Assembly (NCBI RefSeq): GCF_947495665.1
Contig: NZ_CANLZV010000005.1
Span: 1 to 64,000 of the forward strand
DNA length: 64,000 nt
Origin: an uncultured Sunxiuqinia sp.
GTDB lineage: Bacteria > Bacteroidota > Bacteroidia > Bacteroidales > Prolixibacteraceae
Reading direction: 5' to 3'
This document shows positions 1,558 to 21,682 of this stretch, in pieces (position 1 is the first letter of the stretch; every line of letters starts with the position of its first letter). The notes beneath the pieces are model-generated. The model saw only the letters and a program-made list of their open reading frames with translations. It did not search any database and was not told where the DNA came from. The translations under genes and the position numbers were made by a program.

Positions 1558-1700
1558 ACACGGGCTCCATACTTCATCCGTTCCTCATTAGCCTGTTTCT
1601 GAGGTTCAACCGTCACCGATTCCTATCCCTTTCCTCTGTGCCTGTGCCTGTCCCTGGTGCCTTCGCCTCTGCCTGTTCCTTTTCCCTTTTGTTATCCAGA

Positions 1701-1744
1701 TGTAATTTAACCGTATAAAAACTGTAATCAAGTTGTAATCTAAT
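1701..1744 (+). promoter_or_regulatory. Pho-box-like array, four 11-bp direct repeats
   Basis: Four consecutive 11-mers start at 1701, 1712, 1723 and 1734: TGTAATTTAAC, CGTATAAAAAC, TGTAATCAAGT, TGTAATCTAAT. The exact 11-bp phasing of a T-G-T-rich hexamer is the known architecture of PhoB operators (TGTCAT-type direct repeats in Enterobacteria). The same phasing and core occur before the porin-pst operon at 21639-21682. The first gene downstream is the TonB receptor at 1948. No good -7 element follows at 10 bases (TAATTCGC at 1751 is weak), so the promoter itself is less certain than the operator. Confidence 0.65.
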
Positions 1745-1947
1745 TCCTCGTAATTCGCCTGTGAAAACAAAAGCGACTGGACACGCAGTGGCATGTTTGT
1801 AAAAGGTGATTTTGAACATCGAATTTGGGTGAGCTGCTAAAGCCCGAATTGGCATCAGCCAACCTTTTGTAAACCAGCAACAGCTTGTGTCCATCGGCAG
1901 GAATCAACCCCAGTGGTTGAGCAGATTGGATAATTGATTACAAATTT

Positions 1948-4743
1948 ATGGGACTTAAAAAATTACTTTTCGTTTGCCTGTTGGCAAACTTTTCACAGCT
2001 GGCATCAGCTAAAACTGGATCCCTTGTGGGAACGGTTGTCGATGCAAAAACCAAAGAAACACTGATTGGCGCCACCATCTTTCTGGAAGGAACCAGCTTG
2101 GGAACCATTACCGATTTTGATGGGAACTACCGGTTGGAGCAAGTGCCCGCCGGAAAGTACACGGTGCGTTGCTCGTTTATTTCGTATGAAACGAAAACGC
2201 TCGAAGATGTTACTGTTGTGGAGGATCAAATCGTCGATCTGCCCTTTGTTTTGGGCGAATCAACAGTACAGATTGAGGATGTAAAAGTGGTGGCTAAGGC
2301 CAACCGCGAGTCGGAAACCATGTTGCTGATGTACCAGAAGGAGGCTGCCATTATGAAGGAGTCTATTGGCGCTCAGCAGCTTTCAGCGCAGGGAGTTTCA
2401 GATGCCGCTGCTGCCGCCACAAAAATTACCGGGGTGAGCAAGCAGGAAGGCAGTAAAAGCCTGAACATTCGCGGGCTGGGCGACCGCTACAATGCCACGA
2501 CCCTGAATGGCCTGCCTTTTCCATCCAACAATGCCGAGACCAAGAACATTGACCTGGGACTTTTCTCTTCGGATGTGATTGGGTTCATTGGAGTGGAAAA
2601 AGTAGCTACCAGTGCCTTGTATGGCGATTTTGCGGGGGCCAATATCGACATTGTTTCGAAGAAATTTACCGGCGATCCTTTTTTTGAGCTCGCCCTTAAG
2701 TCCGGCATAAACAGCAGCGTGCCGGGCGTGGATCATTTCTACCTGCAAGACGGGCCGGGCTTTTCGGGTTTCGACAACTTCCAGCCAACGCCTTCCTTGG
2801 ATGCTTATGACTTCGGCAACTCCTGGAACCCGGTGGAGAAAACAGCCATCCCGAACCTGGGAATCGGCCTTTCCGGCGGCAAATCGTTTGAAGTGGCTGA
2901 TTCGAGATTGAATGCCTTTTTTACGGCGTCTTTCGATAATGAATACAGCTACAGCGACTTGATGCAGCGGCGGATTAATGGGAGTGACGATGTGCGCAAG
3001 GACCTGCAAGGCGAGCAGTATGCCTATGAAACGCAGACTACAGCCATGCTTAACCTGAACCTGGAACACAAGCAGTCGGATTACTATTTCAATACCATGT
3101 TGCTGAATTCGTCGAATCAGGACTTGAAAAACCTGCGTGGATTTGTCAAAGACCTGGCTGAAGACAGCGCGCTGATTCGTCGCTCGGAGTTTGAGCGAAC
3201 CACCATTTGGGTGAATCAGCTGTTGGGCGAGCACGAACTGAACCCGCAGGTAACCATGAACTGGGGCCTCTCTTACAACAAAGTACATAACATTACGCCC
3301 GACCGTCGTCACCTTTCCCTGAACGGGCTGAGGGATGGTCGCGCTTATTTTACGGATGACAATGAGTCGGACAACTTTCGCTATTTCCACGACTTCAACG
3401 AAAATGAATATGCCCTGAACTGGAGCACGGCTTACCGATTTGGCGAAGGAATCGGAACAGATGATTTCCGCGGAAAACTTACTCTGGGCTACTCCGGAAA
3501 GTACAAAGAGCGTCAGTTTGAAGCCACTCAGTTTAACCACGACATTTACCGGAACCGGAACATTTTCAACCCACCTCCGGGCGGATACCATGTTTATGTT
3601 GACGTGATGGACGTGGACGCTTTTCTGAATGCTGCCAACCTGCAGCGCCCTGATGGCTATGGCTTTTACCTGAAAACCTTCTTTGGAAACACCATTCGCC
3701 CTTCAACTTACGAGGGAACACAGCTGATCAATGCAGGCTTTGCGTCGCTGGAGTACCAGCTGTCACCAAAACTATTGGGAGTTCTGGGCCTTCGGGTGGA
3801 GAATGTCAACCAGCAGGTCGATTTTGTAACTGCGCTGGATACGGATGGTGGAACCGGCAACTTCAACGAACTGGAAGTTTTACCAAGCTTGTCGTTGCGC
3901 TATGCTCTGAACGAGAAAAGCAATTTACGTCTGGCGGCCAGTAACACGTATGTCTTGCCTCAGTTTACCGAAATGGCCCTGTTTCTATTTGAAGGAATTA
4001 CCGAAACCACGGTGGGTAACCCTCACCTGTATCCTTCCAAAGTGTACAATGGCGACCTGAAGTGGGAATGGTTCCCGAACAGTGGCGAACTGGTGTCGGT
4101 AGCCGCTTTCGGAAAATACATTACCGACCCGATGAACCGGGTGGTGATGGCCTCAGCTTCCAACGATTTTACCTATGCCAATACGGGCGACTATGCCTAT
4201 TTGTATGGCGCGGAGCTGGAAGTGAAAAAAGATTTGTGGACCCAAACAACGGGAACTGACTATCAGAAACTGTTTGCCTCGGCCAACCTGACGCTGATGG
4301 AAACCAGCCAGGAGTTGGATGGGGCTAAAGTTCGGGAAGAGACGAAAGATCAGAACGGAAACTCCCTGATCAATATCAATTTCAACCAGGATAAGGATGT
4401 CTTGCAGGGGGCTGCGCCTTTAATGGCCAATGCCAGCCTGGGCTATAAACGCACCTGGGGCGAAGGGAAAAACGCGCTAAGCTCTTCGCTGGTGTATGGC
4501 TATGTTTCCGACCGCCTTTACCTGATTGGCTTTTCCTCTTTCGGCAACCAGGTCGACAAGCGTGTCCACACGCTCGACTATGTATTGAAAGCATCTTTCA
4601 ATAAGCTGGGCGTGAATTTCTCCGCTAAAAATATGCTCAATGGTGCCATCGACCGGGTGCAGGAAAATGCCTCTGCCGATCACCTGATCAGATCCTACAA
4701 GCAAGGAGTGAAATTCAGTGTAGGACTGTCTTATAAATTTTAA
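1948..4743 (+). CDS. TonB-dependent outer-membrane receptor, putative phosphate-starvation type
   Basis: Outer-membrane active transporter of 931 aa. A signal peptide (about residues 1-21, ending ASA) is followed by a CarboxypepD_reg-like beta-sandwich (about 25-105, with the GSLVGTVVDA opening and TITDFDGNYRL), a plug domain (about 125-245, including SLNIRGLGDRYN and the LYGDFAGANIDI segment), and a 22-strand-type beta-barrel ending in the aromatic YKF. There is no SusC-type N-terminal signature and the partner is not SusD. The next gene, 39 bases downstream, encodes a surface-type lipoprotein, so the two probably form a receptor/lipoprotein unit. The Pho-box-like array about 200 bases upstream suggests induction by phosphate limitation. 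The ligand is unknown; a phosphate ester or other phosphorus-containing compound is inferred from regulation only. Confidence 0.85.
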   Translation: MGLKKLLFVCLLANFSQLASAKTGSLVGTVVDAKTKETLIGATIFLEGTSLGTITDFDGNYRLEQVPAGKYTVRCSFISYETKTLEDVTVVEDQIVDLPFVLGESTVQIEDVKVVAKANRESETMLLMYQKEAAIMKESIGAQQLSAQGVSDAAAAATKITGVSKQEGSKSLNIRGLGDRYNATTLNGLPFPSNNAETKNIDLGLFSSDVIGFIGVEKVATSALYGDFAGANIDIVSKKFTGDPFFELALKSGINSSVPGVDHFYLQDGPGFSGFDNFQPTPSLDAYDFGNSWNPVEKTAIPNLGIGLSGGKSFEVADSRLNAFFTASFDNEYSYSDLMQRRINGSDDVRKDLQGEQYAYETQTTAMLNLNLEHKQSDYYFNTMLLNSSNQDLKNLRGFVKDLAEDSALIRRSEFERTTIWVNQLLGEHELNPQVTMNWGLSYNKVHNITPDRRHLSLNGLRDGRAYFTDDNESDNFRYFHDFNENEYALNWSTAYRFGEGIGTDDFRGKLTLGYSGKYKERQFEATQFNHDIYRNRNIFNPPPGGYHVYVDVMDVDAFLNAANLQRPDGYGFYLKTFFGNTIRPSTYEGTQLINAGFASLEYQLSPKLLGVLGLRVENVNQQVDFVTALDTDGGTGNFNELEVLPSLSLRYALNEKSNLRLAASNTYVLPQFTEMALFLFEGITETTVGNPHLYPSKVYNGDLKWEWFPNSGELVSVAAFGKYITDPMNRVVMASASNDFTYANTGDYAYLYGAELEVKKDLWTQTTGTDYQKLFASANLTLMETSQELDGAKVREETKDQNGNSLININFNQDKDVLQGAAPLMANASLGYKRTWGEGKNALSSSLVYGYVSDRLYLIGFSSFGNQVDKRVHTLDYVLKASFNKLGVNFSAKNMLNGAIDRVQENASADHLIRSYKQGVKFSVGLSYKF

Positions 4744-4782: not shown

Positions 4783-6960
4783 ATGAAAAAATTACTTTTC
4801 GTATTGTTTGCTATCGTATTGCTGGGCTTTGCCGGATGTAATGAAGACAATCCGACCCCTGAAGTTCCTGAAGAGAATTCGAATCTGGAAGGAGAGGTAA
4901 CAACGGATATGGTTTTGGATGCTAACACCAAGTATAGCTTGACCGGAGCCTTGATTGTAAAAGCAGGGGGTTCTTTGACGATTCCTGCCGGAACGGTGAT
5001 TGAAGCAGTAGGTGGACAAATCTCCTACATTGCTGTGGCACAGGATGCCAAAATCTTTATTAACGGTACGGCCAGTGCACCGGTCGTGATGACTTCAAGC
5101 GACAAAACTTCCGGATCATGGGGTGGTTTGGTTGTTTGCGGAAAAGCGCCAACCAACAAATCGGATGCTTCGGCCGGAGCGGAAGTTTCGGGCTTGCCTT
5201 ATGGTGGCAATGTGGCCGATGACAACTCCGGAGTAATTAACTACCTGCGTGTCGAATACACCGGATTCAACTACAGCGACACCAAGCAGTTCAATGGTGT
5301 TTCTTTCTTCGGCGTAGGATCCGGAACAGAGGTTGATTACGTGGTTTCTTACATGGGTAAGGATGATGGTATCGAGTTCTTTGGCGGAACCGTCAATGCC
5401 TCTCACCTGGTATCTGTAGGAAGTGATGATGATGGTATCGACTTTGCTGATGGCTGGTCAGGAACCGGTGAATACTGGGTCGCTCTGAACTCAACCAAAT
5501 CAGGAATTGAAGGATCAAACAACGGCGACAATGGTGCTGCCACACCAATGACCAACGCAACCTTGAGAAACCTGACTGTTTATGGTATGGGCGAAAAGCC
5601 TTTCTACCTGAAAGAAGGTGCCGGACAGGTAACAGTTGACAACCTGGTAATTGGAGGCTTGGTAGCCAGCAAGGAACAATCCATGTTTTATGCCGATGGC
5701 GACGATGCTGATGCTGCGGCCCGTATTGCAGCTGGTGATGTGGTGGTAACCAACGCTCGTTTTGTGGACCTGGTTGGTGCGCAAACTAAAGCAATGGACG
5801 GATTGACAATTGGCGAAAACCCGGCGGCTACCGGAGCGGGTAACGGCATTGAAAAACCAGACTGGATGCCGGACGCTTTGAATCAGGTCAATGAGTCGAC
5901 TACAGTATTTGGCGATGCGCCAACCGGAGGCGAAGTGGCTTTGAGTGGTGACATTACAACAGATGTTGTGCTGGATGCCGGAACAGCTTATAAACTAACC
6001 GGAGCCTTGGTGGTAAAAGCAGGTGCTTCATTGACGATTCCTGCCGGAACAGTGATTGAAGCCATTGGCGGACAAATCTCTTACATTGCCGTGGCACAGG
6101 ATGCTCAAATCTTCATTAACGGAACTGCGGACGCACCTGTGGTGATGACTTCAGATGATCCAACTCCGGGTTCGTGGGGTGGACTGGTTGTTTGCGGAAA
6201 AGCACCAACCAACAAATCAGATGCTTCAGCCGGAGCGGAGGTTTCAGGCTTGCCTTATGGCGGAAATGTGGCCGATGACAATTCCGGCGTAATCAACTAC
6301 CTGCGTGTAGAATATACCGGATTCAACTACAGCGATACGAAGCAATTTAACGGCGTTTCTTTCTTCGGAGTAGGTTCGGGAACCGTTGTTGATTATGTTG
6401 TCTCTTACAAAGGCAAAGACGACGGAATTGAGTTTTTCGGAGGAACCGTGGATGCTTCTCACCTGGTGTCGGTATACAGCGATGACGACGGGATTGACTT
6501 TGCCGATGGCTGGTCAGGAACCGGCGAGAACTGGTTGTCGTTGTATTCCACCAAATCAGGAATCGAAGGCTCAAACAATGGCGACAATGCGGAAGCTACG
6601 CCAATGACCAACGCCACGCTAAAAAACCTGACCGTTTATGGTATGGGTGAAAAGCCGTTCTACTTTAAAGAAGGCGGTGGTAAGCAAAACATTGACAACA
6701 TCGTGATTGGCGGTTTGGTGGATGGCTCAAGCCATTCCTACTTCTACGCTGATGCCGATGCGGTTGCCCGCATTACTGCTGGCGACATTGTGATTACCAA
6801 TGCCAACTTTGTGGAAATTGGTGATCAGGCAAAAGGTCCCGATGGGCTGACAATTGGTGAAAATACGGAAGCCAAAGGAGCTGGCAATGGCATTGGAAAA
6901 CCAGCTTGGTTGTCTGATGAGCTAAATACCGCCAGCAATGGCGAAGTGATTGTAGACTAA
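4783..6960 (+). CDS. Lipoprotein with two tandem near-identical beta-helix-like halves
   Basis: Predicted surface or periplasmic lipoprotein of 725 aa. The signal peptide ends in GFAGC with Cys19 as lipidation site, followed by an acidic/proline linker (NEDNPTPEVPEEN). The mature protein is two copies of one ~340-residue domain (about 34-385 and 387-725). Each copy contains LTIPAGTVIEA, ISYIAVAQDA, SWGGLVVCGKAPTNKSDASA, GVINYLRVEYTGFNY, KDDGIEFFGGT, DDDGIDFADGWSGTGE and DGLTIGEN. Regular short hydrophobic/Gly turns suggest a right-handed beta-helix, and the Asp-rich turns could bind Ca2+. Each half has one cysteine in VVCG. I know similar single-domain proteins next to TonB receptors in other Bacteroidota, often with uninformative names, and no proven function. 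Co-transcription with the receptor 39 bases upstream and the Pho-box-like array suggest a ligand-capturing partner; this is inference. Confidence 0.75.
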   Translation: MKKLLFVLFAIVLLGFAGCNEDNPTPEVPEENSNLEGEVTTDMVLDANTKYSLTGALIVKAGGSLTIPAGTVIEAVGGQISYIAVAQDAKIFINGTASAPVVMTSSDKTSGSWGGLVVCGKAPTNKSDASAGAEVSGLPYGGNVADDNSGVINYLRVEYTGFNYSDTKQFNGVSFFGVGSGTEVDYVVSYMGKDDGIEFFGGTVNASHLVSVGSDDDGIDFADGWSGTGEYWVALNSTKSGIEGSNNGDNGAATPMTNATLRNLTVYGMGEKPFYLKEGAGQVTVDNLVIGGLVASKEQSMFYADGDDADAAARIAAGDVVVTNARFVDLVGAQTKAMDGLTIGENPAATGAGNGIEKPDWMPDALNQVNESTTVFGDAPTGGEVALSGDITTDVVLDAGTAYKLTGALVVKAGASLTIPAGTVIEAIGGQISYIAVAQDAQIFINGTADAPVVMTSDDPTPGSWGGLVVCGKAPTNKSDASAGAEVSGLPYGGNVADDNSGVINYLRVEYTGFNYSDTKQFNGVSFFGVGSGTVVDYVVSYKGKDDGIEFFGGTVDASHLVSVYSDDDGIDFADGWSGTGENWLSLYSTKSGIEGSNNGDNAEATPMTNATLKNLTVYGMGEKPFYFKEGGGKQNIDNIVIGGLVDGSSHSYFYADADAVARITAGDIVITNANFVEIGDQAKGPDGLTIGENTEAKGAGNGIGKPAWLSDELNTASNGEVIVD
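4885..6930. repeat. Internal gene duplication, ~1 kb direct repeats
   Basis: Nucleotides from about 4885 to 5890 and about 5938 to 6930 encode the same domain twice with long stretches of identical protein, for example the segment from SWGGLVV through YGMGEKPFY with few changes. Synonymous differences are scattered throughout, so the copies are diverging under constraint and are not a recent assembly artefact. A spacer of about 15 codons (NESTTVFGDAPTGGE) separates the copies. Confidence 0.85.
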
Positions 6961-7010: not shown

Positions 7011-7047
7011 AAAGTTCCGGCACCTTGTGTCCGGGACTTTTTCTGTT
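7011..7047 (+). terminator. Rho-independent terminator of the receptor/lipoprotein operon
   Basis: A 10-bp stem AAAGTTCCGG/CCGGGACTTT (7011-7020 with 7031-7040, one G-T pair) with a 10-base loop is followed by TTTTTCTGTTT. It lies 50 bases after the lipoprotein stop codon. Confidence 0.85.
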
Positions 7048-7094
7048 TAATTGAACTTTAATTTTTATGTAATCCAGACTTGATCGGGTTGAGG

Positions 7095-7124: not shown

Positions 7125-7313
7125 ATGAAAGCACTTATCGTAAGCTTTTTGTTAGCCGGAATAGTCAGTTTTTCTTTTGCTGCTGAAAAGGAATCAAAAG
7201 AAAACAAGGCGGCCGATGTCCTTCAGATTCCATACGAAAAAGCAACGGTTGAAGCTGCTCAAATTAGTCCCAAGAAAAACCAGGTGAATTTTAGTCTTAG
7301 AACAGCGGATTAA
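7125..7313 (+). CDS. Small exported peptide, 62 aa, function unknown
   Basis: A 62-aa peptide with a clear Sec signal (MKALIVSFLLAGIVSFSFA, cleavage after FAA or SFA), leaving about 42 mature residues that are highly charged (AEKESKENKAAD) and end in QVNFSLRTAD. I do not recognise a family. It looks genuinely expressed: a consensus -7 element lies 22 bases upstream, and a perfect 10-bp terminator hairpin follows 36 bases after the stop. A strong terminator upstream separates it from the receptor/lipoprotein operon. No second cysteine, lipobox or membrane segment is present, so the product should be periplasmic or secreted. It could also mark a small-RNA locus, but codon structure and the signal sequence favour a protein. 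Confidence 0.6.
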   Translation: MKALIVSFLLAGIVSFSFAAEKESKENKAADVLQIPYEKATVEAAQISPKKNQVNFSLRTAD

Positions 7314-10697: not shown

Positions 10698-10790
10698 TGT
10701 TATTCGTTTTTAAGTTTTCAGTAAATTGTTTGTAGGATGTGTTGTAAGTTGTAACAGAATATTACAGAAAACTTTAAAAATAGTTCATCC

Positions 10791-11378
10791 TTATTTTCGT
10801 TTCTTCTTGCGCTTCTTCTTTTCAACCGACCAGCCAAACTTGCCTATCGGATCGCCGAGCTTAAAATAATGCCCGTGTGAGTAACAAATCGGGTCGGCTT
10901 TCTTCAGGCTAAATGCTCCGGTTTCAGAGTCGAGGTATTGCTCATCAGCCATGACATTCACCACTTCGGAAATAAACATGTCGTGGGTGCCCAGCGAAAC
11001 AATTTCTTTCACCCGACACTCAATGCTGATGGGGGCTTCTTCGATAACGGGGGTTTGGATGACACTTGCCGGAGCCGGAGTCAGTCCCATTTCTTTCCAC
11101 TTGTCGAACTTGCGGCCCGAACGAACCCCGCACCAGTCGGTGGCCCGCGCCAGCTTCTCGGTGGTCAGGTTGATCACGTACTCGCCGGTGCGTTTGATGA
11201 TTTCGTAGGAATGGCGGTTGGGCCGAACCGAAATATAGCACATGGGCGGATCGCTGCAAATGGTTCCAGTCCAGGCAATGGTAATCAGGTTGTATTCGTC
11301 GGGGGTAACACCACAGCTAACCAACACCGCGGGGAGGGGGTACACCATGGTTCCCGGTTTCCAATTGACTTTTGACAT
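10791..11378 (-). CDS. Flavin reductase family protein (flavoredoxin-like)
   Basis: A 195-aa cytoplasmic FMN-binding split-barrel protein of the flavin reductase/flavoredoxin family. Family-type segments are the opening KPGTMVYPLPAVLVSCG, NLITIAWTGTICSDPPMCYISVRP and the GEYVINLTTEKLA region, which line the flavin pocket in relatives. The C-terminus is a lysine/arginine tail (EKKKRKKKRK) that is not part of the fold. Start: a TTG 18 bases upstream is in frame but overlaps the region just downstream of a perfect -7 promoter (TACCTTTG), so ATG at 11378 (MSKVNW) is chosen. The redox partner is unknown. Confidence 0.8.
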   Translation of the reverse strand: MSKVNWKPGTMVYPLPAVLVSCGVTPDEYNLITIAWTGTICSDPPMCYISVRPNRHSYEIIKRTGEYVINLTTEKLARATDWCGVRSGRKFDKWKEMGLTPAPASVIQTPVIEEAPISIECRVKEIVSLGTHDMFISEVVNVMADEQYLDSETGAFSLKKADPICYSHGHYFKLGDPIGKFGWSVEKKKRKKKRK

Positions 11379-11392
11379 GTTTGTGTTTTGGT

Positions 11393-11400
11393 GCAAAGGT
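11393..11400 (-). promoter_or_regulatory. -7 promoter element TACCTTTG
   Basis: Perfect TAnnTTTG match reading on the minus strand, 14 bases before the flavin reductase ATG. It rules out the upstream in-frame TTG as the translation start. Confidence 0.7.
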
Positions 11401-11592
11401 AAAAAAAGTGCCCTAAGTACATCGACTCATGAATGTCTGGGAACGGACTTGCTTTTTTCGGTTTCTGAACCGTCAGGAGGCCGTTTCTCCTCTTGACAAC
11501 TGTTTGGCAGGGTGCATTGTCTTTTAAGTCTAGATCCTTGTGTGTGAGGTGCTTATTTCGTAAATTTAATATTGGACCAAAAATTAACAGTC

Positions 11593-12132
11593 ATGAAAAA
11601 TATCGTTTTTATGTTTTTAGCATGTGTTTTATTATTCGGTACTTCATGCCATGATAAAACAGCGAGGACTGAGCTTGACGCCTTTAAGCTAAAACAGAAC
11701 ATTGAGGAGCAGAATAAGCAAATTATTCAGCGGTATTGGGATGGGAAGTGGAATGAACGACATGCTGAGATTTTAGAAGAGTTACAATCTCCCCATGTGG
11801 TTTATCATGGAACGTCCATGGAGATGAATGGACTGGAAGAGTACAAGGAGGTGTATCAGAGTTATCTTTCAGCAATGCATGATTCCCACCTCACGATTAA
11901 TCAATTAATTGCTGAAGACGATTGGGTGATGAGTCGTGTAAGGCTGGAGGCAGTTCATAAGGGGGATATGGAAGGCCTGCCTGCTACCGGGAAGAAGGTT
12001 GAGGTAGATATCTTTACGGTTTTTCGATTGGTGGACGGAAAGATTGTTGAAGAATGGGAAGTTATGGATGAACTGGGTATGATGATGCAGCTTGGTCTGG
12101 AACTTCAAATGAAGGAAGAAATTAATGAATAG
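11593..12132 (+). CDS. SnoaL-like/ester cyclase-type lipoprotein
   Basis: A 179-aa lipoprotein: the signal sequence MKNIVFMFLACVLLFGTSC ends in a lipobox with Cys19. The mature part has the cone-shaped NTF2/SnoaL-like pattern: an N-terminal helix with IIQRYWDGKWNERHAEILEEL, VVYHG, then the strand series HLTINQLIAEDDWVMSRVRLEAVHKG, VDIFTVFRLVDGKIVEEWEVMDELGMMMQLG. These match 'ester cyclase' annotated proteins, but the fold is used for many activities and a lipidated version need not be an enzyme. Start: an in-frame TTG 21 bases upstream gives a longer N-terminus; ATG at 11593 is preferred since it begins the signal peptide. A near-consensus -7 (TAAATTTA, 11561-11568) lies upstream. Confidence 0.7.
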   Translation: MKNIVFMFLACVLLFGTSCHDKTARTELDAFKLKQNIEEQNKQIIQRYWDGKWNERHAEILEELQSPHVVYHGTSMEMNGLEEYKEVYQSYLSAMHDSHLTINQLIAEDDWVMSRVRLEAVHKGDMEGLPATGKKVEVDIFTVFRLVDGKIVEEWEVMDELGMMMQLGLELQMKEEINE

Positions 12133-12151
12133 GATACTCCCCTTGGCCTCC

Positions 12152-13645: not shown

Positions 13646-15418
13646 TTAGCCTTTAGCCAGCGAGAACAGGAACTCGAGTCCTCCTTCGGGCTTGTTACGG
13701 ACCGAGATTTCGCCCTTATGCAGCTGCACCGCATTTTTTACAATAGACAAGCCCAGGCCGGTTCCCCCGTTTTCGCGGGTGCGGCCCTCATCGGCTCGGT
13801 AAAAACGCTCAAAAATACGTGCCAGGTGTTCCTCCGGAATTCCTTTTCCGGTATCGGAATAACTCAGGTAATAAAACTTCTCGTCTTCGAGGTACTGCTT
13901 AATCTGAATGCGCGTATTTTCGCCGGCATAGTTGATGGAGTTCTCAATGAAATTCTGGAAAATGGAGGACAGCAAACTGTCGTTTCCATAAACTTTTACC
14001 TCATCGCTCACGGCCACCTGCACCAGCATGTTACGCTCGTTCAGGCGCGACTCCAGGTTCTCAATCACGTCATTAATCAACGGACGCAGGTGCGTGTATT
14101 TAAATTCAAACAAGTCGCCGGCATCTTCAATGTTGTTGAGCAGGGAAATGTCGTTCAGCAAGTCATTCAGGCGTTCGCTCTGGCTAAAAGCCCGTTCAAT
14201 AAAGTAGTCCAGCTTTTCCTTGGGCAGATTCTTGTTATTCAGAATGGTTTCCAAGTAGCCTTTAACCGAAGCCAGCGGCGTTTTCAGCTCATGCGCAATG
14301 TTGGAGGTCAGCTGCTGTTTCAGCAAACGGCGTTTCTCCGGCTTGGTAATATCGCTGATCAACACCTCGAAACTCTTATCGGGAAAGACGATGCTTTGCA
14401 CCCGGAAATACTTTTCGTTGCGCGAAATGGTAATCGAAAACTGAGGCAGGTCTTTGGGGTTAATCACGATATCACTTTCCAGGTATTTATCGATTTGATA
14501 AACCAGCGGTTTGAAATCCTCAATATCAAAAAGCATCTCGGCCGAAATCGACGAGCGGTCTGAAATCAGGTTGATGTATTGAATGAAATGGCTGTTCGCC
14601 AATATTTTTTCTTTGTTGGGCAGAAAGAAGGCAATCCCCTCGTTCAGGGCATTCAGGTGGTTAAACAATCGCTCCTTCTCGGCAGTCAGGTCTTCCTTGG
14701 CTTCCCTCAGGTCGTTGTAGATGTGCACAATTTGCCGGCGGATATCGCCAAACTCCGAGTCGGCAAAGGTCAGGTTCGGGTCAATATTTTCGTTGCGTCC
14801 GGCGCGGACGGCAAAGTCACGCAGCTTGTTCACAAACTCACCCAGGCGGTTGGTTACCAGCGACAGCAAGCCCCACATAATGACAAAGAGGGCAATCATG
14901 AAGAAGATAAACACCCGCTCGGTCTTCAGAAAATTCTTAATTTCAATGTTGTATTCCACCGCACAGCGCACAAAATAGCCGTTGTAGTAGCGCGCAAAAT
15001 AGTAGAAGTCCTGCCCGGTGGTTTCCGAGTGGCGGATGTTGCTACCGGTTTCGGAGTAAAGCGCCTTTTGCACTTCCGGACGCGAGAGGTGATTCTCCAT
15101 CTGGCTGTAGTCCGACACATAGCTATCGTACAACACATCGCCCTTGGTATCGATCACCGTCACCCGGGTATTGCTTTCCGGAATCAGGTAACGAAGGGTG
15201 TCCAAACGGGCAAAATCCTGCTCCTCCATCACATCGTAATGCTTGATATACCGGCTGGTAAAGCCCGCAATGTTATCCAGCGTATTCTCCAGCTGATCGG
15301 TCCGGTAGCGTTTTTCGCGGTTAAACTGAAAGGCCAGAATCGCGATCATGAAAAAAGAAAATGCAGCAAAAAAGTAGATGAAAATCCGCTGCTTGTATGT
15401 TCTACGTTGAAGTCCCAC
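13646..15418 (-). CDS. phoR: Phosphate-regulon sensor histidine kinase PhoR
   Basis: Membrane sensor kinase of 590 aa that phosphorylates PhoB when phosphate is scarce. A first membrane segment (about residues 12-30) and a second (about 168-188, RVFIFFMIALFVIMWGLLSLV) bracket a periplasmic domain of ~135 residues. A PAS-like cytoplasmic region follows, then HisKA with His376 in NIAHELKTPLASVKGYL and a C-terminal ATPase with NSINYAGENT (N box), DTGKGIPEEHLARIF and GGTGLGLSIVK (G boxes). The start codon is GTG; the next in-frame ATG would delete most of the first membrane helix. It is the last gene of the porin-pst-pho operon. The 102-base gap after phoB holds two short hairpins (CGGCC/GGCCG and TCATGA repeats) that may lower its expression. 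The large periplasmic domain is typical of Bacteroidota PhoR. Confidence 0.88.
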   Translation of the reverse strand: MGLQRRTYKQRIFIYFFAAFSFFMIAILAFQFNREKRYRTDQLENTLDNIAGFTSRYIKHYDVMEEQDFARLDTLRYLIPESNTRVTVIDTKGDVLYDSYVSDYSQMENHLSRPEVQKALYSETGSNIRHSETTGQDFYYFARYYNGYFVRCAVEYNIEIKNFLKTERVFIFFMIALFVIMWGLLSLVTNRLGEFVNKLRDFAVRAGRNENIDPNLTFADSEFGDIRRQIVHIYNDLREAKEDLTAEKERLFNHLNALNEGIAFFLPNKEKILANSHFIQYINLISDRSSISAEMLFDIEDFKPLVYQIDKYLESDIVINPKDLPQFSITISRNEKYFRVQSIVFPDKSFEVLISDITKPEKRRLLKQQLTSNIAHELKTPLASVKGYLETILNNKNLPKEKLDYFIERAFSQSERLNDLLNDISLLNNIEDAGDLFEFKYTHLRPLINDVIENLESRLNERNMLVQVAVSDEVKVYGNDSLLSSIFQNFIENSINYAGENTRIQIKQYLEDEKFYYLSYSDTGKGIPEEHLARIFERFYRADEGRTRENGGTGLGLSIVKNAVQLHKGEISVRNKPEGGLEFLFSLAKG

Positions 15419-15520: not shown

Positions 15521-16201
15521 TTAAGAATCAAAGCAATAGCCATAGCCCGAACGCCCTTTAATCACGGTGCCATAGTCTTTTATTTTTTTCCGCAAGCGGG
15601 CAATATTCACATCCACATTGCGCTCGGTAACAATTACATCATCACTCCAAATCCGGTCCAGGATTTCCTGTCGCGAGATAAACTTGCCCCGGTTTTTCAT
15701 CAACATCGCCAGAATCTCAAATTCCTTGCGGGTCAGTTTTATCGGTTCTCCATCCAGCGAGGTCATTTTTCGGCTAATATCCAGCTGCAGCCCTTGGTAT
15801 TCGAGCACGGTGGAAGCCTGCTCGGTCATTTTTCCGCGCTTCAGAATGGCCTTAATCCGCACCACCACTTCCTTGATGGAGAATGGCTTGACAATGTAGT
15901 CGTCGCCTCCCACGTTGAACCCTGTCAGCAAATCGTTTTCCGAGCCCTTGGCCGTCAGAAAAATGATGGGAATGTCCAAGGCTTTCTCTTTCCGAAGCAA
16001 ATCCGCCATTTTGTAGCCCGACATGCCGCCCATCATCACATCCAGCAAAATCAGGTGGTAATTTTCAAGCGGCAGCGCTAACGCTTCTTCAGCCGATGCA
16101 GCCACGTCAATTTCAAAACCTTCACTGGATAAATTGAACTGAAGAATTTCGCGCAGGTCCTTTTCGTCATCAACAACCAATATCTTAGGGGTAGTATTCA
16201 T
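15521..16201 (-). CDS. phoB: Phosphate-regulon response regulator PhoB
   Basis: OmpR/PhoB-type transcription factor of 226 aa. The receiver domain (about 5-120) has the acidic pair D11/D12 (VVDDEKD), phosphoacceptor D54 (LILLDVMMGG) and the conserved Lys in DYIVKPFS. The winged-helix DNA-binding domain (about 130-226) contains IKLTRKEFEILAML, the recognition helix region ERNVDVNIARLRKKI and the closing GYGY. ATG at 16201 is chosen; a longer reading would extend 99 bases into phoU with no domain content. It starts 4 bases after the phoU stop, so the genes are co-translated. It should bind the 11-bp-periodic TGTAAT arrays at 21639-21682 and 1701-1744, giving autoregulation of the operon. Confidence 0.92.
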   Translation of the reverse strand: MNTTPKILVVDDEKDLREILQFNLSSEGFEIDVAASAEEALALPLENYHLILLDVMMGGMSGYKMADLLRKEKALDIPIIFLTAKGSENDLLTGFNVGGDDYIVKPFSIKEVVVRIKAILKRGKMTEQASTVLEYQGLQLDISRKMTSLDGEPIKLTRKEFEILAMLMKNRGKFISRQEILDRIWSDDVIVTERNVDVNIARLRKKIKDYGTVIKGRSGYGYCFDS

Positions 16202-16205
16202 GGGC

Positions 16206-16892
16206 CTATTTCTCCAATTTATGATGACGGATATCTTTTCCTTCGATGGAATAAATGGCTGCCTCGGCAATGTTGGTAGCGTGATCAGCAATCCGTTCAA
16301 TGTTCGACATCATTTCTTTAATGGTCACAATGCTCATCAGCAGGTGCTTGTTGCTTTCTGCCGTTTCGGTTTTAGCCAAAATCTTTTTCAGCAACTTATG
16401 GTTGATTTCTTCAAAAACCACATCATTCTTAATGGTCCAAACCGCAAATTCCCGGTCGTCATTCAAATAGGACAGCAAGGATTTCCGAACCATTTTAATG
16501 CTCTGAATGGTCATGGTTGACAAAACTTCCAGCAAACGTTCGTAAATTTCCGGTGTTTTAATCTTATCAATGAAATTGGTGACATTCAGCACAATATCGC
16601 CAATCCGCTCCAGACTCAGAATGATCCGGTAACAAGCCATAATCCAGCGTAAATCAGAAGCTACCGGCTTATACAACACAATGGCATTCACAATTTTTTC
16701 GCTCAGTTTGACTTCCCGTTTATCAATGTCCTTTTCATTCCGGGTAATCTTTTTCAGCAGCTCTTCCGGCACCTCTATTTCTCCCGAAATAATAATCTGT
16801 TCCAGCAAATCCAGCTGTTCCAGCACCAGGTTGGCCATGGCTTCAAAATCTTCCTGGATGTGATTGATCGCGTCGTCTTTTTTTATGGTCAT
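16206..16892 (-). CDS. phoU: Phosphate signalling regulator PhoU
   Basis: Cytoplasmic helical protein of 228 aa, the usual length, made of two three-helix PhoU repeats. Each half carries the E/D-rich metal-binding motif: KEXXID-type NEKDIDKREVKL in the first repeat and related acidic residues in the second (FEEINHKLLKKIL), plus LERIGDIVLNVTNFI and IERIADHATNIAE, the two conserved ER-x-x-D helices. PhoU links the Pst transporter state to PhoR and represses the regulon when phosphate is ample. Placed between pstB (23 bases) and phoB (4 bases). Confidence 0.93.
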   Translation of the reverse strand: MTIKKDDAINHIQEDFEAMANLVLEQLDLLEQIIISGEIEVPEELLKKITRNEKDIDKREVKLSEKIVNAIVLYKPVASDLRWIMACYRIILSLERIGDIVLNVTNFIDKIKTPEIYERLLEVLSTMTIQSIKMVRKSLLSYLNDDREFAVWTIKNDVVFEEINHKLLKKILAKTETAESNKHLLMSIVTIKEMMSNIERIADHATNIAEAAIYSIEGKDIRHHKLEK

Positions 16893-16915
16893 GATTTGAA
16901 TTTATTAAATGACTG

Positions 16916-17695
16916 TTAACCAAATTTTCCGGTCAGGTATTCTTCGGTTCTGGGGTCGATCGGGTTGGTAAACATGTTTTTGGTTTTCCCGTATTCAACC
17001 AACTCACCAAGATACATAAATAATGAATAGTCAGAGATTCGTGCCGCCTGCGACATGTTGTGTGTCACCAGCACAATGGTATAGTTTTCTTTCAGTTTGA
17101 CCAGCAAATCCTCCACTTTGGAAGTGGCAATCGGGTCGAGGGCCGAAGTGGGTTCGTCCATCAGAATCACTTCCGGACTAAAAGCCAGTGCCCGCGCAAT
17201 GCACAAGCGTTGCTGCTGCCCGCCCGAAAGAAAAGTTCCTTTCTTGTAAAGCGAATCTTTCACTTCATCCCAAAGGGCCACATCGCGCAAGGAACGTTCA
17301 ACAATTTCATCGCGCTCCTTCTTTTTGGTTCGAATGCCATTCAGCTTGTAACCGGCAATTACGTTGTCGTAAATGCTCATGGTTGGGAAGGGGTTGGGCC
17401 GCTGAAACACCATGCCCATATGCCGCCTCAACTTGATGGGTGACATGTCGTAAATATTACTGTCATTCAGCAATACTTCGCCCTCTGTGCTGATGTTTTC
17501 ATACAGCTCATGCATCCGGTTCAGGGCGCGCAGCAAGGTACTTTTTCCGCATCCCGAAGGCCCCATAATGGCAGTGACCGTGTTCTTTTTGATTTCAACC
17601 GATACATTTTTGACTGCATAGTTTTTGTCATAGGCAATCGACAAGTCGTTGATCGACAGGATCGGTTTTTTTACTTCAGCTATTGTGTTTGTCAT
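16916..17695 (-). CDS. pstB: Phosphate ABC transporter ATP-binding protein PstB
   Basis: ATPase of 259 aa that powers high-affinity phosphate import. Walker [10 protein letters not shown] at residues 45-53, signature LSGGQQQRL at 156-164, Walker [14 protein letters not shown] with D180/E181, and the switch His in [16 protein letters not shown]. The region [16 protein letters not shown] is typical of PstB. It follows pstA after 3 bases and precedes phoU. Confidence 0.96.
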
Positions 17696-17698
17696 GTT

Positions 17699-18586
17699 CT
17701 AATTTCTTTTGCCTGCCAGTTGTTTCGAAACGATGTTTAAAATTAAGACAATCGCCATTAAAAGCAGGGATGAGCTCCAAATCAGGTCAATCATGTTGGG
17801 GTCGTTATAAAACTCCCAGATTAGCAGCGGAATGGCGCTGGTTGGCTCAGAGATGTCCAGGTTGATGCGCGAACTGCCTAAGGCCGTTAACAAGAGCGGT
17901 GCTGTTTCACCCAAAATACGCGAAATACCCAGCAAAATACCGGTTAGTAAACCACTGAATCCGGTAGGCACCAACACCCTTAAAATGACTTTATGATACG
18001 GAACGCCCAAGGCCAGTGCGGCTTCTTTCAGCGTTTGCGGAATCATTTTCAGCGTTTCCTCGGTTGATCGTACAATCATGGGCAGCATCATAATGGCCAG
18101 CGATACGCTACCTGCCAGGGCCGAATAGCCGCTGGTAACGTGCTTCACCACCCACAAATACGAGATTAAGCCCAATACAATCGAGGGAACCCCCTGTAAG
18201 ATGTCCGAAACATTGCGTGTCAGGTTCGCCATCATCTTTCCCTGGTTTTCATACAGGTAAATGCCGGTTAACACCCCAACAGGGATGGCAATAACAGCTG
18301 CCAGCACCACCATCACCAGCGTACCGACAATTCCGTTGGCTATCCCCCCCGGAATCTTCTCGCCGTTGGCTACTGCGGTCATCGCTTCAAAGGTGTCCGG
18401 CGTATTCTGAATCAGAAAATCAAGACTGATCTGCCGGTAGCCTTCCATCACCAGCTTGAAGATGATCAGCATGATGGGCGAAATGGTGACCAGCGATAAA
18501 ATGACCACGCCGATAAGTACCAGCTTGTCTTTCAACAAACGACCCGACGAGTGATCCTGATTTTTAAGTGCCTGAATTGATTCCAT
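17699..18586 (-). CDS. pstA: Phosphate ABC transporter permease PstA
   Basis: Inner-membrane permease of 295 aa with six predicted helices. The EAA-type loop that contacts PstB is seen as ETLKMIPQTLKEAALALGVPYHKVILRVLVP. The C-terminal GETAPLLLTALG and the SAIPLLIWEFYNDP segment identify PstA as opposed to PstC. It starts 7 bases after pstC and ends 3 bases before pstB. Confidence 0.94.
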   Translation of the reverse strand: MESIQALKNQDHSSGRLLKDKLVLIGVVILSLVTISPIMLIIFKLVMEGYRQISLDFLIQNTPDTFEAMTAVANGEKIPGGIANGIVGTLVMVVLAAVIAIPVGVLTGIYLYENQGKMMANLTRNVSDILQGVPSIVLGLISYLWVVKHVTSGYSALAGSVSLAIMMLPMIVRSTEETLKMIPQTLKEAALALGVPYHKVILRVLVPTGFSGLLTGILLGISRILGETAPLLLTALGSSRINLDISEPTSAIPLLIWEFYNDPNMIDLIWSSSLLLMAIVLILNIVSKQLAGKRN

Positions 18587-18593
18587 TTCCCAA

Positions 18594-19445
18594 TTAGTTC
18601 ATCTTTTTAATTATCAACTTACCCACAGCATTGATGATACCGGTGATCAAAAACAAGAGCAGACCAATGGCAATCAACGAACTCAACTTCAGCCCGTCGG
18701 CTTCGCCAAACTGGTTGGCAATCACACTGGCCATGGTGTTTCCGGTGTCAAAAAAGCTGGACGGAACCACATTGGTGTTTCCAACAAGCATGGTAACGGC
18801 CATAGTTTCTCCCAGTGCACGCCCAAATGCCAGAATGTAGCCGGCAACAATCCCCGACCGGGCATTCGGAATCGTCACCGTAGCGATGACTTCGAGCCGG
18901 GTAGCCCCCAGCGAATAGGCTGCTTCCTTCAAATCGTTGGGTACCATGCTGATGATTTCATTACTCAGCGAAGTGGCATAGGGAATAATCATAATGGCCA
19001 GAATCAAGCTGGCCGTAAAAATTCCGAATCCTCGTCCGCCAAAACCCAGCTCAATCAAAGCTGGCCGCAACACATAGAAGCCCCACAATCCGTATACGAT
19101 TGACGGGATTCCCGCCAATAAATCCACGAGAATACCTAAGATGCGCGCCACACGTGTTCCCCGAAAGTATTCACCCAGAAAAAGAGAGGTGGAAAAAGAC
19201 AAGGGTAAACACAGCAACAAGGCTGCAAAAGAGGTCATCAGGGTTCCAACAATGAAAGGTAAGGCACCATATTCTTCCCGTCCTTCCGTAGGGTTCCACT
19301 CACCGGAAAATATAAACTGCCAGCCAAAGGCTTTGAATGCCGGTACAGCACCACCAACCAAGGAGTAAACCATACCTGCCGCCAGCATCAGAATGAGAAT
19401 GGATACGGAGAATAAAACGGCTTTGGTGATTTTATCACTGTTCAT
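18594..19445 (-). CDS. pstC: Phosphate ABC transporter permease PstC
   Basis: Inner-membrane permease of 283 aa. The PstC-specific periplasmic segment WQFIFSGEWNPTEGREEYGALP precedes the first transport helices; the EAA loop reads NEIISMVPNDLKEAAYSLGATRLEVIATVTIP and FGRALGETMAVTMLVGN follows. It is preceded by an 11-bp hairpin in the pstS-pstC gap, which probably sets the pstS to pstC mRNA ratio. Confidence 0.94.
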   Translation of the reverse strand: MNSDKITKAVLFSVSILILMLAAGMVYSLVGGAVPAFKAFGWQFIFSGEWNPTEGREEYGALPFIVGTLMTSFAALLLCLPLSFSTSLFLGEYFRGTRVARILGILVDLLAGIPSIVYGLWGFYVLRPALIELGFGGRGFGIFTASLILAIMIIPYATSLSNEIISMVPNDLKEAAYSLGATRLEVIATVTIPNARSGIVAGYILAFGRALGETMAVTMLVGNTNVVPSSFFDTGNTMASVIANQFGEADGLKLSSLIAIGLLLFLITGIINAVGKLIIKKMN

Positions 19446-19468
19446 CGACTAAGAGTTTACTCCATTAA

Positions 19469-19498
19469 TCATCGGATGATTTCAGGGTCATCCGATGA
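19469..19498 (-). promoter_or_regulatory. Intercistronic hairpin between pstS and pstC
   Basis: Perfect 11-bp stem TCATCGGATGA/TCATCCGATGA with an 8-base loop, no T-run. Binding-protein genes often have a stem-loop at this place that stabilises the upstream mRNA or attenuates permease expression; the role here is inferred from position. Confidence 0.65.
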
Positions 19499-19511
19499 CT
19501 AAACCATTTAA

Positions 19512-20576
19512 CTATTTTAAAAGTGTTTCACCGCCGTAAGTGACCCCGCGAAGGATCGCTTTGGCTTTCTGCACAGCTGCCTGCGGAAGCGGCGCATAGT
19601 TAACCCGGGCGGCCTGTCCCTGCGCTTCTTCGCCTACCAGCCAATCCAGGAATTCAACCGTAGCCTGGGCCTGTGCTTTGGAGCGGCCATCATACGACTG
19701 GTCTTTATACAGAATAATCCAGGTAAATCCGCTGATGGGGTACGAATCCGGATCGGATGAGTTAGTCAACATCACCCGGGTGTCAGCCGGAATTTCGCCC
19801 TGTGCTGCTGCACTGATGCTTTCAATGCTTGGCAAAATGTAGGCGCCACTGCTGTTCTGCACTTTGGCTGTTTGTATTTTCTGGGCAAAGGCAAACTCAG
19901 AACCGATATAGCCAATGGAGCCTTCGGTTTGGCTAATGGTACCGGCAACACCGGGGTTCCCTTTAGCACCCATACCAACCGGCCATTTCAACGATTTACC
20001 TGTTCCTACAGCATCGGCCCATTTCTGGCTCACTTTACTCATGTAGTCGCTAAAAATATGGGTTGTACCACTACCGTCTGAACGGTGTACAAAGGTGATT
20101 TCCAGGTCTGGAAAGTTCACATCCGGGTTGTTGGCTTTTAAAGCCGGATCGTTCCAGTTGGTAATCTCACCCATGAAGATTTTCTCCAGCAGTTGATCTG
20201 AAAGCTTCAGCTCGTCCACTCCGGGCAGGTTATAAGCAATTACTACGGCCCCAATACAAGTTGGAATGTGGACTACTTCACCCGGCATTTCGCCTAATTT
20301 ACCATCTTCCAGGTAGGCGTCAGTGGCTCCAAAATCCACCACTTTATCTTTCAAACTACGGATACCTCCGCCTGAACCAATACCTCCGTAAGTGACCAGC
20401 ACATCGGTTGCTTTGGTGTAGTTTTTAAATACCAGGTTGTAGTATGGTAGTGGGAAGGTTGCTCCAGCGGCAGTCAGACTAACGCTTTCGTTACCTGAAT
20501 CATTGGTTTTCTTACTTGAATTTTGGCATGCACTAAACAAGACAAGTGCCAAAACAAAGGATACAATTACTTTCAT
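19512..20576 (-). CDS. pstS: Phosphate-binding lipoprotein PstS
   Basis: High-affinity phosphate-binding protein of 354 aa delivering phosphate to PstCAB. The signal peptide MKVIVSFVLALVLFSAC carries a lipobox with Cys17. Phosphate-pocket motifs are AAGATFPLPYY, GIGSGGGIRSLKDKVVDFGATDAYL and HRSDGSGTTHIFSDYM. The start is the ATG at 20576; an in-frame TTG 12 bases upstream is unlikely. Lipidation, as in many Bacteroidota, would anchor it at the membrane in place of a free periplasmic form. It starts 19 bases after the porin gene. Confidence 0.94.
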   Translation of the reverse strand: MKVIVSFVLALVLFSACQNSSKKTNDSGNESVSLTAAGATFPLPYYNLVFKNYTKATDVLVTYGGIGSGGGIRSLKDKVVDFGATDAYLEDGKLGEMPGEVVHIPTCIGAVVIAYNLPGVDELKLSDQLLEKIFMGEITNWNDPALKANNPDVNFPDLEITFVHRSDGSGTTHIFSDYMSKVSQKWADAVGTGKSLKWPVGMGAKGNPGVAGTISQTEGSIGYIGSEFAFAQKIQTAKVQNSSGAYILPSIESISAAAQGEIPADTRVMLTNSSDPDSYPISGFTWIILYKDQSYDGRSKAQAQATVEFLDWLVGEEAQGQAARVNYAPLPQAAVQKAKAILRGVTYGGETLLK

Positions 20577-20595
20577 GACTAAAATCAATTATAGA

Positions 20596-21579
20596 TTAGA
20601 ATTTGATCTCACAATTCAAAAAGACTGATGCACTAAAATCTTTGTTGCTGTCCGCCGGGCTCCATCCCTGGAAGTTAGGCGACAGTTTTACACCTTTAAC
20701 CGGAGCAAACTCCAGTCCGGCCAGATACAGCTGACCATCCTTGCTCAGGTTCCAGTCGTTGGCAGCTCCATCCACAGTGTTGGAATAAAGCTGATCATAG
20801 CGGGCAAACACCTTAATTTTAGAGGCGGCTTTCCAGGTTCCGTAGAACGAAACACCATTTAAATCCTGGCCATCTTTAAAACCGGCATTAAACTGGTGGT
20901 TGTATTCGGCATTGACCGAAAACTTGTCGGCGGCATAACCAATAAAGGTGGCCAGCGACGACTGGGTATTTTCTTTGGAAATAAAATCGTAGTAAACCCG
21001 TCCGGTCAGCTTTTTAGTCGGGGTAAGTGTCACCCCAAAGCCTGTACGGAAGGTGCTGTCGGCCTGTACTTTCTTGTAGCCTTCACCATTGGCCACAATC
21101 ACGTCGGCACTCAAAACATCCGAAAATTGGTAAGCCAAACTAATTCCAAGGTCAGCGCTGGCGTTGTATTTGTGCTCATCCTGAAGCGATTTGTACAAAT
21201 ACCGGTAGCCCCAGGCATTTTCCTGTACTTTAAACTGGGTTGTTGCAATCATCCCGAAATTTGCTGTGAAGTTTCCGGTATGGTATTTCAGGTAAGCGTT
21301 CTTCACGAAAGCAGTCATTTCCAGTCCGCCAACACCGGGATCGGCAACATCTAAAACAATTGCGCCAGACAATTCCCGGCTAAACTGGTGTTGGTAGCCC
21401 AGGTAAACCCGGGTCAGTTCAAAGGTGGAAGCAGATTCACCATCCGAAAATGTACTGTGATAATTACTGTAAATCCGCATAACTGGTTTTCCACTTGGTT
21501 TAAATTCATTGGTTGTTTGGGCCTGGCCCAAGGCGATCATGCTCAACATGACCATTACTAATACGCCAATACGTTTCAT
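20596..21579 (-). CDS. Outer-membrane porin, OprO/OprP-like, of the phosphate operon
   Basis: A 327-aa outer-membrane beta-barrel with a signal peptide (about 1-20, ending GQA), alternating amphipathic strands and a C-terminal NCEIKF aromatic residue. Segments such as FELTRVYLGYQHQFS, GAIVLDVADPGV, FTANFGMIATTQF and ADVIVANGEGYKK resemble the phosphate-selective porin O/P family. First gene of the pst/pho operon, directly behind the Pho-box-like array, so it is the most strongly regulated product and a likely phosphate entry channel. Shorter than Pseudomonas OprP (over 400 aa), so specificity is inferred from context. Confidence 0.8.
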   Translation of the reverse strand: MKRIGVLVMVMLSMIALGQAQTTNEFKPSGKPVMRIYSNYHSTFSDGESASTFELTRVYLGYQHQFSRELSGAIVLDVADPGVGGLEMTAFVKNAYLKYHTGNFTANFGMIATTQFKVQENAWGYRYLYKSLQDEHKYNASADLGISLAYQFSDVLSADVIVANGEGYKKVQADSTFRTGFGVTLTPTKKLTGRVYYDFISKENTQSSLATFIGYAADKFSVNAEYNHQFNAGFKDGQDLNGVSFYGTWKAASKIKVFARYDQLYSNTVDGAANDWNLSKDGQLYLAGLEFAPVKGVKLSPNFQGWSPADSNKDFSASVFLNCEIKF

Positions 21580-21638: not shown

Positions 21639-21682
21639 AAAACATTACAGGTCCGTTAATGAAATATTACAATTCGATTAAA
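21639..21682 (-). promoter_or_regulatory. Pho-box-like array upstream of porin-pst-pho operon
   Basis: Reading the minus strand from 21682: TTTAATCGAAT, TGTAATATTTC, ATTAACGGACC, TGTAATGTTTT. These are four 11-mers in exact phase, two with a perfect TGTAAT core and two with a shared TAA. The downstream operon encodes PhoB itself, supporting this as the PhoB operator of this organism. Confidence 0.75.

Follow-up and report, generated by a model that had tools for sequence, protein, structure and literature searches.

What controls a TonB-dependent receptor and a lipoprotein that are encoded some distance from a phosphate-transport operon, and what do they carry? The question is raised by a 64-kb stretch of DNA from an uncultured Sunxiuqinia sp. 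(contig NZ_CANLZV010000005.1, positions 1 to 64,000; hereafter the window), in which four 11-bp direct repeats (1701..1744, forward strand) precede the two genes. A preliminary description, made from the sequence alone, had likened these repeats to a Pho box, the operator of PhoB, and had assigned the pair to the Pho regulon as importers of a phosphorus source.

The receptor/lipoprotein operon and the pst/pho genes of the window

The receptor gene (1948..4743, forward strand) encodes 931 amino acids in which Pfam recognizes a carboxypeptidase-regulatory-like domain, a plug and a barrel. It scores below the cut-offs of the NCBIfam models TIGR04056 for SusC/RagA (60.4 bits, cut-off 368.25) and TIGR01782 (148.7 bits, cut-off 310). 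The adjoining gene (4783..6960, forward strand) encodes a putative ElpS/FI-FIII-like lipoprotein of 725 amino acids. Its lipid cysteine is followed by NEDN, and it consists of one domain repeated in tandem (approximately 4783-5931 and 5905-6957). The Pfam scan assigned it to no family, hence it lacks a SusD_RagB domain. Past the pair lie a partial, weaker copy of the array (7044..7073, forward strand), which is fuller before the corresponding gene in relatives, and a 62-amino-acid ORF (7125..7313, forward strand) without Pfam family. Comparison suggests that this ORF is what remains of a free-standing CarboxypepD_reg-like protein (about 117 amino acids in relatives), with both ends kept and the middle lost. 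Full-length versions with fuller boxes were seen at four loci (L285, L290, L291 and L292). At another locus, a stand-alone CarboxypepD_reg-like domain (PF13715, L093:3353-3712) lies 3' of a Pho box and is similar to the N-terminal domain of that locus's TonB receptor. In the window, the pair is separated from phoR by unrelated genes (8592-13264), those for an M3 peptidase and Lgt among them.

The pst/pho genes are on the reverse strand. They comprise a PhoR-type sensor kinase (13646..15418; Pfam HisKA, HATPase_c), a PhoB-type response regulator of the pst-linked type (15521..16201; Response_reg, Trans_reg_C) and phoU, pstB, pstA, pstC and pstS (16206..20588; Pfam matches for PhoU, the ABC ATPase and the PBP). 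pstA and pstC were named from gene order and similarity without a Pfam scan, and pstC shares 73-94% identity with its counterparts in 16 relatives from the same family. The first gene of the operon (20596..21579, reverse strand) probably encodes an outer-membrane barrel; its homologues head the pst operon in relatives, and its product has no Pfam match, Porin_O_P (PF07396) included. Before this gene, and on its strand, lie four further 11-bp repeats (21639..21682) with the cores TTTAAT, TGTAAT, ATTAAC and TGTAAT in order from 21682 to 21639, followed by TTTG at 21629-21626 (reverse strand). The preliminary description was accurate in all of this architecture: four 11-mers in 11-bp phase at 1701-1744, three with a TGTAAT core, the same design before the pst/pho operon, and a distance of about 12 kb (11.9 kb from the array to the end of phoR at 13646).

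The receptor-side array

The array reads TGTAATTTAAC (1701-1711), CGTATAAAAAC (1712-1722), TGTAATCAAGT (1723-1733) and TGTAATCTAAT (1734-1744). The TGTAAT core is exact in the first, third and fourth units, and the second is degenerate (CGTATA). A fifth 11-mer, TGTTATCCAGA (1690..1700, forward strand, core TGTTAT), stands in phase on the 5' side, and a similar unit is present in several relatives. The array thus contains the two or more same-orientation 11-bp direct repeats that characterize a PHO box. Twenty nt past the start of the last repeat lies TTCG (1754..1757, forward strand), a -7-type element and variant of TTTG.

Scored over four units, the receptor-side and pst-side arrays account for the two real scores of 21 and 20 out of 24, each the best of its strand in the window; 300 first-order Markov versions of the 64-kb window, searched on both strands, reached 20/24 once and never 21. 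Across all 4.73 Mb of the genome, these two arrays alone contain the exact pair TGTAAT-N16-TGTAAT. With one mismatch allowed the pair is little enriched (30 occurrences versus 22 for the reversed pattern), while TGTAAT-N5-TGTAAT with up to one mismatch occurs 37 times versus 14. Because the mismatched 22-bp pair is barely enriched, the strength lies in the full array. The leader of about 190 nt between array and receptor gene, unlike the array and the -7 box, is not conserved among relatives. A structured leader was considered and rejected on this ground and because Rfam returned a single sub-threshold match, to a worm snoRNA.

Genome-wide search with a profile from relatives

Loose consensus scans were too noisy to define a regulon, and we therefore built a profile, R1, of 61 positions from 32 sites, none of them from this genome. 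Forty sites outside the window were reduced to 33 by dropping those at least 80% alike, and one more, upstream of an 'OprP'-led operon, was dropped. R1 was run on the whole 4.73-Mb genome, which gave 16 matches with E≤10 among the 150 of 1655 first-look candidates that were scored. The preliminary description had proposed such a genome-wide scan with a 4 x 11-bp matrix built from 21639-21682; the scan with R1 placed the pst operon first (41.4 bits, E 4.9e-10) and the array at 1701-1744 second (33.4 bits, E 1.6e-7). The third match (C4:199084-, E 1.3e-6) heads genes for SusC, SusD and an Exo_endo_phos protein. The fourth (C14:46565-, E 5e-4) likewise heads SusC and SusD genes; further downstream, Pfam identifies a GH92 glycosidase, an alkaline phosphatase and a metallophosphoesterase. 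The PHO boxes of a genome are expected to precede pst as well as further phosphate genes, and the top four matches are found in such places. The partial copy at 7044-7073 ranks fifth (E 0.056), and a match at noise level (E 2.2) lies before a PHO4/Pit-type transporter (L181). Both SusCD operons (L178 on G000:C4, L179 on G000:C14) combine phosphatase-family genes with strong boxes, and the GH92 glycosidase of the C14 operon might hint at phosphorylated mannan.

The same profile, applied to seven relatives with 150 candidates scored in each, gave 22 matches with E≤0.01. They precede receptor-lipoprotein operons (5), pst (5), a lipoprotein (1), genes for the small CarboxypepD_reg-like protein (4), phoB (2, in one genome), Pit (1), SusC (1), sigma/anti-sigma-like pairs assigned by eye (2) and an unassigned gene (1). 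Many of the receptor-lipoprotein, pst and lipoprotein matches belong to the training set or are near copies of it; the other eleven lie outside it. No housekeeping promoter was recognized among the 22, counting two labelled by eye and one unassigned. The sigma/anti-sigma-like pairs (L288 on G001:C105 and L295 on G005:C149) perhaps pass phosphate control to further TonB systems.

Conservation of the array and of the gene neighbourhood

Lipoprotein homologues were found in 45 of the 61 genomes searched, which comprise the present one and 60 relatives, and 53 stretches from relatives were examined (median 12.5 kb, many ending at contig ends; one match at a contig start, G050:C36, was left out). 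Of the 53, 18 contain an orthologue of phoB, phoR, phoU or a pst gene of the window, 17 a relative of the first protein of the pst operon, and 25 one or the other; six further stretches carry a PhoB-like regulator of a second type. At four loci (L094, L104, L106 and L108) the receptor and lipoprotein genes lie directly 3' of pst-phoU-phoB-phoR.

The array was scored in 59 upstream regions of at least 150 nt from these stretches and the window, and in a pst set from which one stretch, L147, was left out as it gave no pstC match (its pst site was later found as L277). With a TGTAAT core and an 11-bp step, a score of at least 18/24 was reached by 14 of 27 receptor-led operons and 16 of 18 pst operons, the window being included in both, by 11 of 17 regions before a lipoprotein gene without such an upstream partner, and by one of 15 operons led by the pst-first relative. 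The preliminary description had taken absence from orthologous loci as evidence against its reading. By the score of 18/24 the array is present before most pst operons and about half of the receptor-led ones. It is missing from the other 13 of 27, among them L091, a close relative whose receptor and lipoprotein are 60% and 75% identical to those of the window.

Steps of 8-10 and 12-14 bp gave zero or one case in each set, and the 11-bp step on the reverse strand gave none in the receptor-led and pst sets, one in the lipoprotein-only set and three of 15 before the pst-first relative, where a divergent phoB often uses the same upstream region. When the six letters of TGTAAT were rearranged in the 59 other possible ways, the nearest alternatives were shifted readings of the same core, such as TTGTAA (7/27, 7/17 and 14/18 in the receptor-led, lipoprotein-only and pst sets) and GTAATT (5, 8 and 10). 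In the pst-first-relative set, other arrangements reach 3 of 15 and TGTAAT 1.

The array at 1701-1744 is thus very probably a Pho box, a prediction from sequence, simulation, the genome pair count and the profile. Its match to the pst switch and its presence in many relatives make it very probable that exhaustion of phosphate switches the pair on. Its assignment to the Pho regulon, already made in the preliminary description, seems to us almost certain in view of the genome ranking, the recurrence in relatives, the spacing to the -7 box and the linkage to phoB, phoR and pst.

The lipoprotein and the putative cargo

A model of one lipoprotein domain (pLDDT 87, pTM 0.86) consists mostly of short strands. 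The PDB fold search gave nothing at E≤0.001 (best 1.6e-3), and no PDB relative was found by sequence or profile. The fold matches listed (50 of 392; TM 0.13-0.44) are mainly carbohydrate-acting beta-helices and phage tailspikes, with a few adhesins. Because they are weak, we took the fold class alone from them, and the lipoprotein is predicted to be a beta-helix. The residues invariant in 35 aligned rows include D194, D195, E198, D216, D217, D220 and E243, acidic positions that would suit a metal site.

Acidic residues after the lipid cysteine are reported as a surface-export signal in this phylum (PMC5080379). At least two D/E residues at positions +2 to +6 occur in 23 of 26 lipoproteins with a receptor upstream. 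The window protein (C-NEDN) carries the acidic residues right after the cysteine that mark a surface-exported lipoprotein (LES). Lipoproteins encoded after the pst-first relative begin with CRK in 15 of 15 cases (CRKS in 14), and none has two acidic residues; 13 of the 16 other lipoproteins are acidic there. Since acidic residues constitute the export signal, the lipoprotein of the receptor is expected outside and the CRKS form inside, and surface display of the window lipoprotein is likely as far as these residues tell. Porin_O_P (PF07396) was found in none of six partners of CRKS lipoproteins that were scanned; lacking a Pfam porin family, such a partner is unproven as a phosphate channel.

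Downstream of the lipoprotein genes, 126 ORFs in the same direction include small CarboxypepD_reg, T9SS-sorted and MORN proteins, phoB/phoR, one Pit and one Na/Pi cotransporter, a company that points weakly to phosphate rather than its esters. We consider it fairly likely that the pair imports a phosphorus source. The strongest competing explanation retains phosphate control of the operon and drops phosphorus import: the lipoprotein would be a surface enzyme or a phosphatase activator, and the receptor would carry another cargo. The weak fold likeness to mainly carbohydrate-acting beta-helices is in keeping with it, as are a pectate lyase gene 3' of one lipoprotein copy (L112) and the report that overproduced ElpS raised secreted phosphatase activity, purified ElpS having none (PMC2996285). 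However, the lipoprotein genes keep company with phoB/phoR/pst and with transporters, and a BLAST of the 126 downstream ORFs against three phosphatase-family references gave no match, although one Pfam metallophosphoesterase (L111) appeared among ten downstream proteins scanned. We therefore rate this explanation as unlikely, if still a serious competitor to import of a phosphorus source.

A more specific form of the import reading would be a two-sided phosphate relay at the outer membrane of Bacteroidota, in which an acidic beta-helix lipoprotein stands outside by the TonB receptor and its CRKS form inside by the barrel-like pst-first relative. Their common ligand would be phosphate, perhaps with calcium, suggested as a co-ligand by the invariant acidic residues, and the receptor would be an energized importer of inorganic phosphate under a Pho box. 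We regard this relay as speculative and on balance rather improbable.

The regulator

In B. fragilis, recombinant PhoB is reported to shift a 512-bp fragment of the pstC promoter, and pstC expression to drop to trace levels without phoB (PMC3547664); that paper does not contain the word "consensus". A pstC match was obtained in six of eight genomes searched. Before pstC of B. fragilis Q1F2 (L266) we find TGTAACATAAA TGTAACACCTT TGAAACACTTC CTTCAAACGGT ATTCACACATC CTTAATACTTA, nine bases and TTTG, that is, six 11-bp steps, three of them with TAA, and TTTG at offset 20. Array-like matches were found at three of seven pstC loci of named genomes (L264, L265 and L266); the other four have no array within 1.5 kb upstream, and the operon may begin further off. 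As an internal control, all eight phoB genes situated inside a pst-phoU operon lack an array (scores of 12-14), and ten other phoB genes score at least 18 (three), 16-17 (five) or 13-14 (two).

The genome encodes a second PhoB/PhoR-like pair, divergent beside the Pit transporter (L181:2367-4197, G000:C5 approximately 66366-68196). Conceivably this regulator, or another one of the OmpR type, is the main binder of the array and the pst-linked PhoB does not activate this operon. By Pfam, L181 indeed encodes a Response_reg/Trans_reg_C regulator and a HisKA kinase. In F. hibernum, the regulator adjoining the receptor shares 66% identity with that of L181 and 38% with the window PhoB, and, where a regulator of either type was found, the second type is linked to the pair in 17 of 20 named loci and in six of 23 relative stretches. 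The pst type is linked in three of the named loci but in 17 of the 23 relative stretches, which represent the window's own group, and arrays precede pst as well as pst-type phoB genes that have their own promoter. We find the L181-type explanation improbable, and under either regulator control would still be by phosphate. The pst-linked PhoB is highly likely to be the main binder at 1701-1744, and both regulators may read the same repeat.

Promoter geometry and distribution in the phylum

The spacing was examined in 42 sites that had been selected solely for their repeats. In 33 of them TT(T/A/C)G begins exactly 20 nt past the first base of the last unit; the second most frequent offset is found in five sites, and 1000 shuffles gave at most six at any offset. 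The array therefore occupies the fixed position relative to the core promoter that is typical of a PHO box. The main sigma factor of the phylum is reported to have the -7 consensus TAnnTTTG, with TTTG near -33 in B. fragilis (PMC7366714). From this consensus and the 20-nt offset, the last repeat would take approximately the place of the -33 element.

When named genomes were searched with the lipoprotein alignment, at least 595 stretches were confirmed, of which 80 loci were kept (Flavobacterium, Aquimarina, Bacteroides, Sphingobacterium, others and a few MAGs labelled Acidobacteria or Poribacteria); 77 had upstream DNA to analyse and three had none. In 38 of the 77, the highest-scoring profile match on either strand of the entire locus lay no more than 400 bp before the operon, for 1.1 expected, with the reservations that the profile includes the -7 box and that a training locus probably comes from the same genome as at least L208 (identical 61-nt site). 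A match in this interval was among the top three of the locus in 52 of 77. The homologues outside Bacteroidota labels, in MAGs of Acidobacteria (L240, L245) and Poribacteria (L252, L261), have a receptor in front in three of four cases, and the profile scores before them are negative.

A second test was anchored on TTTG(C/T), which was present in 59 of 71 promoters. TAA peaks at -18, -29, -40, -51, -62 and -73 from the anchor (15, 35, 31, 16, 27 and 24 of 59), and at least two in-phase TAA units occur in 41 of the 59 anchored receptor promoters, against zero to three of 59 when the phase is shifted by 1-5 nt. The flavobacterial core is closer to TAACA than to TGTAAT. Two or more in-phase units are also seen in 55 of 266 anchored promoters of other genes at the same loci, a control contaminated by phosphate genes: the cases with at least three units, not all of them identified, include lipoprotein genes, a Pit-like transporter and a Porin_O_P gene. 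Two rival readings, a repeat arisen by chance in AT-rich DNA and a promoter feature general to the phylum, might draw on the mild enrichment of the loose 22-bp pair, the generality of the -7 box and the in-phase units of some control promoters. Both are hardly credible: chance was rejected by the simulation and by the strict 11-bp phase in relatives and named loci, and a general promoter element by the genome-wide ranking, whose four best matches all precede phosphorus-type operons.

Computation showed the array itself, its conservation, the genes that share it in the genome and its spacing; together these suggest the following sequence of events under PhoB control. PhoR phosphorylates PhoB under phosphate shortage, as is established for this family, and would do so here. 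PhoB would then bind head to tail on four or more 11-bp units of the form T(G/T)TAA(T/C). The last unit, 20 nt before the TTTG of the -7 box, would place PhoB approximately at the -33 element, where it would recruit RNA polymerase and switch on receptor and lipoprotein as one operon. At the surface, the lipoprotein would hold the phosphorus source and the receptor would pull it across the outer membrane. For this locus we infer PhoB binding, induction, surface display and import, and we consider the explanation as a whole quite likely.

With a Pho promoter code for Bacteroidota, a phylum that abounds in guts, soils and coastal water, the phosphate-starvation regulon could be deduced directly from raw genome sequence. 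Such a code also points to uncharacterized phosphorus receptor/lipoprotein systems. In the window, it turns a loose link, a receptor near pst, into a prediction at named bases.

Comparison with known systems

The array shares with the E. coli PHO box its head-to-tail 11-bp direct repeats before pst and other phosphate genes (PMC4415409). It differs from it in its core (TGTAAT or TAAC instead of CTGTCAT), in its four or more units and in being locked, in Bacteroidota, 20 nt from a TTTG -7 box. No Pho box for Bacteroidota was found in the open-access literature searched, most subscription papers lying outside it; in the available text of the review PMC4415409 "Bacteroidetes" occurs zero times and no Bacteroidota Pho box is described.

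PusCD, of the SusCD-like systems for phosphate utilization, is likewise a TonB receptor and lipoprotein induced by phosphate, an induction that is predicted for the window pair. Unlike in PusCD, the window lipoprotein has no SusD domain (Pfam) and no phosphatase is encoded 3' in the window. Another parallel, compared by description, is ElpS of Caulobacter (Cc0170), a lipoprotein secreted on phosphate starvation whose gene adjoins that of a TonB receptor (Cc0171) and for which the authors note Bacteroides homologues (PMC2996285). In contrast to the window lipoprotein, ElpS is encoded beside a type II secretion cluster, and its receptor is reported to be constitutive (PMC2996285).

A further counterpart is found in F. 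johnsoniae, where a receptor (Fjoh_0545) and the lipoprotein FII (Fjoh_0546, with a pectin-lyase-type annotation) are induced on phosphate depletion and adjoin oprP-phoR-phoB (PMC8115612). The term "Pho box" is not used in that paper. FI, FII and FIII are all induced by low phosphate and resemble a lipoprotein of Caulobacter, for which the ElpS paper is cited (PMC8115612). The preliminary description had regarded this lipoprotein family as usually unnamed, a view that these published, ElpS-like homologues qualify. In F. hibernum (L190) a Porin_O_P gene, the kinase and the regulator are followed by a divergent receptor and lipoprotein, the latter, in the gene-order place of FII, being 43% identical to the window lipoprotein. 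Compared with the F. johnsoniae pair, that of the window lies 6.7 kb from phoR, near the other PhoB type, and its lipoprotein of 725 amino acids is duplicated in tandem. Because the F. johnsoniae homologues are already known to be induced by low phosphate, and ElpS with its receptor resembles the pair, the latter is not new in kind. The gene pair thus has studied relatives; what is new here is the promoter code and the partner-specific lipoprotein signals, the latter offering an entry to the role of the lipoproteins that are abundant in phosphate-starved F. johnsoniae.
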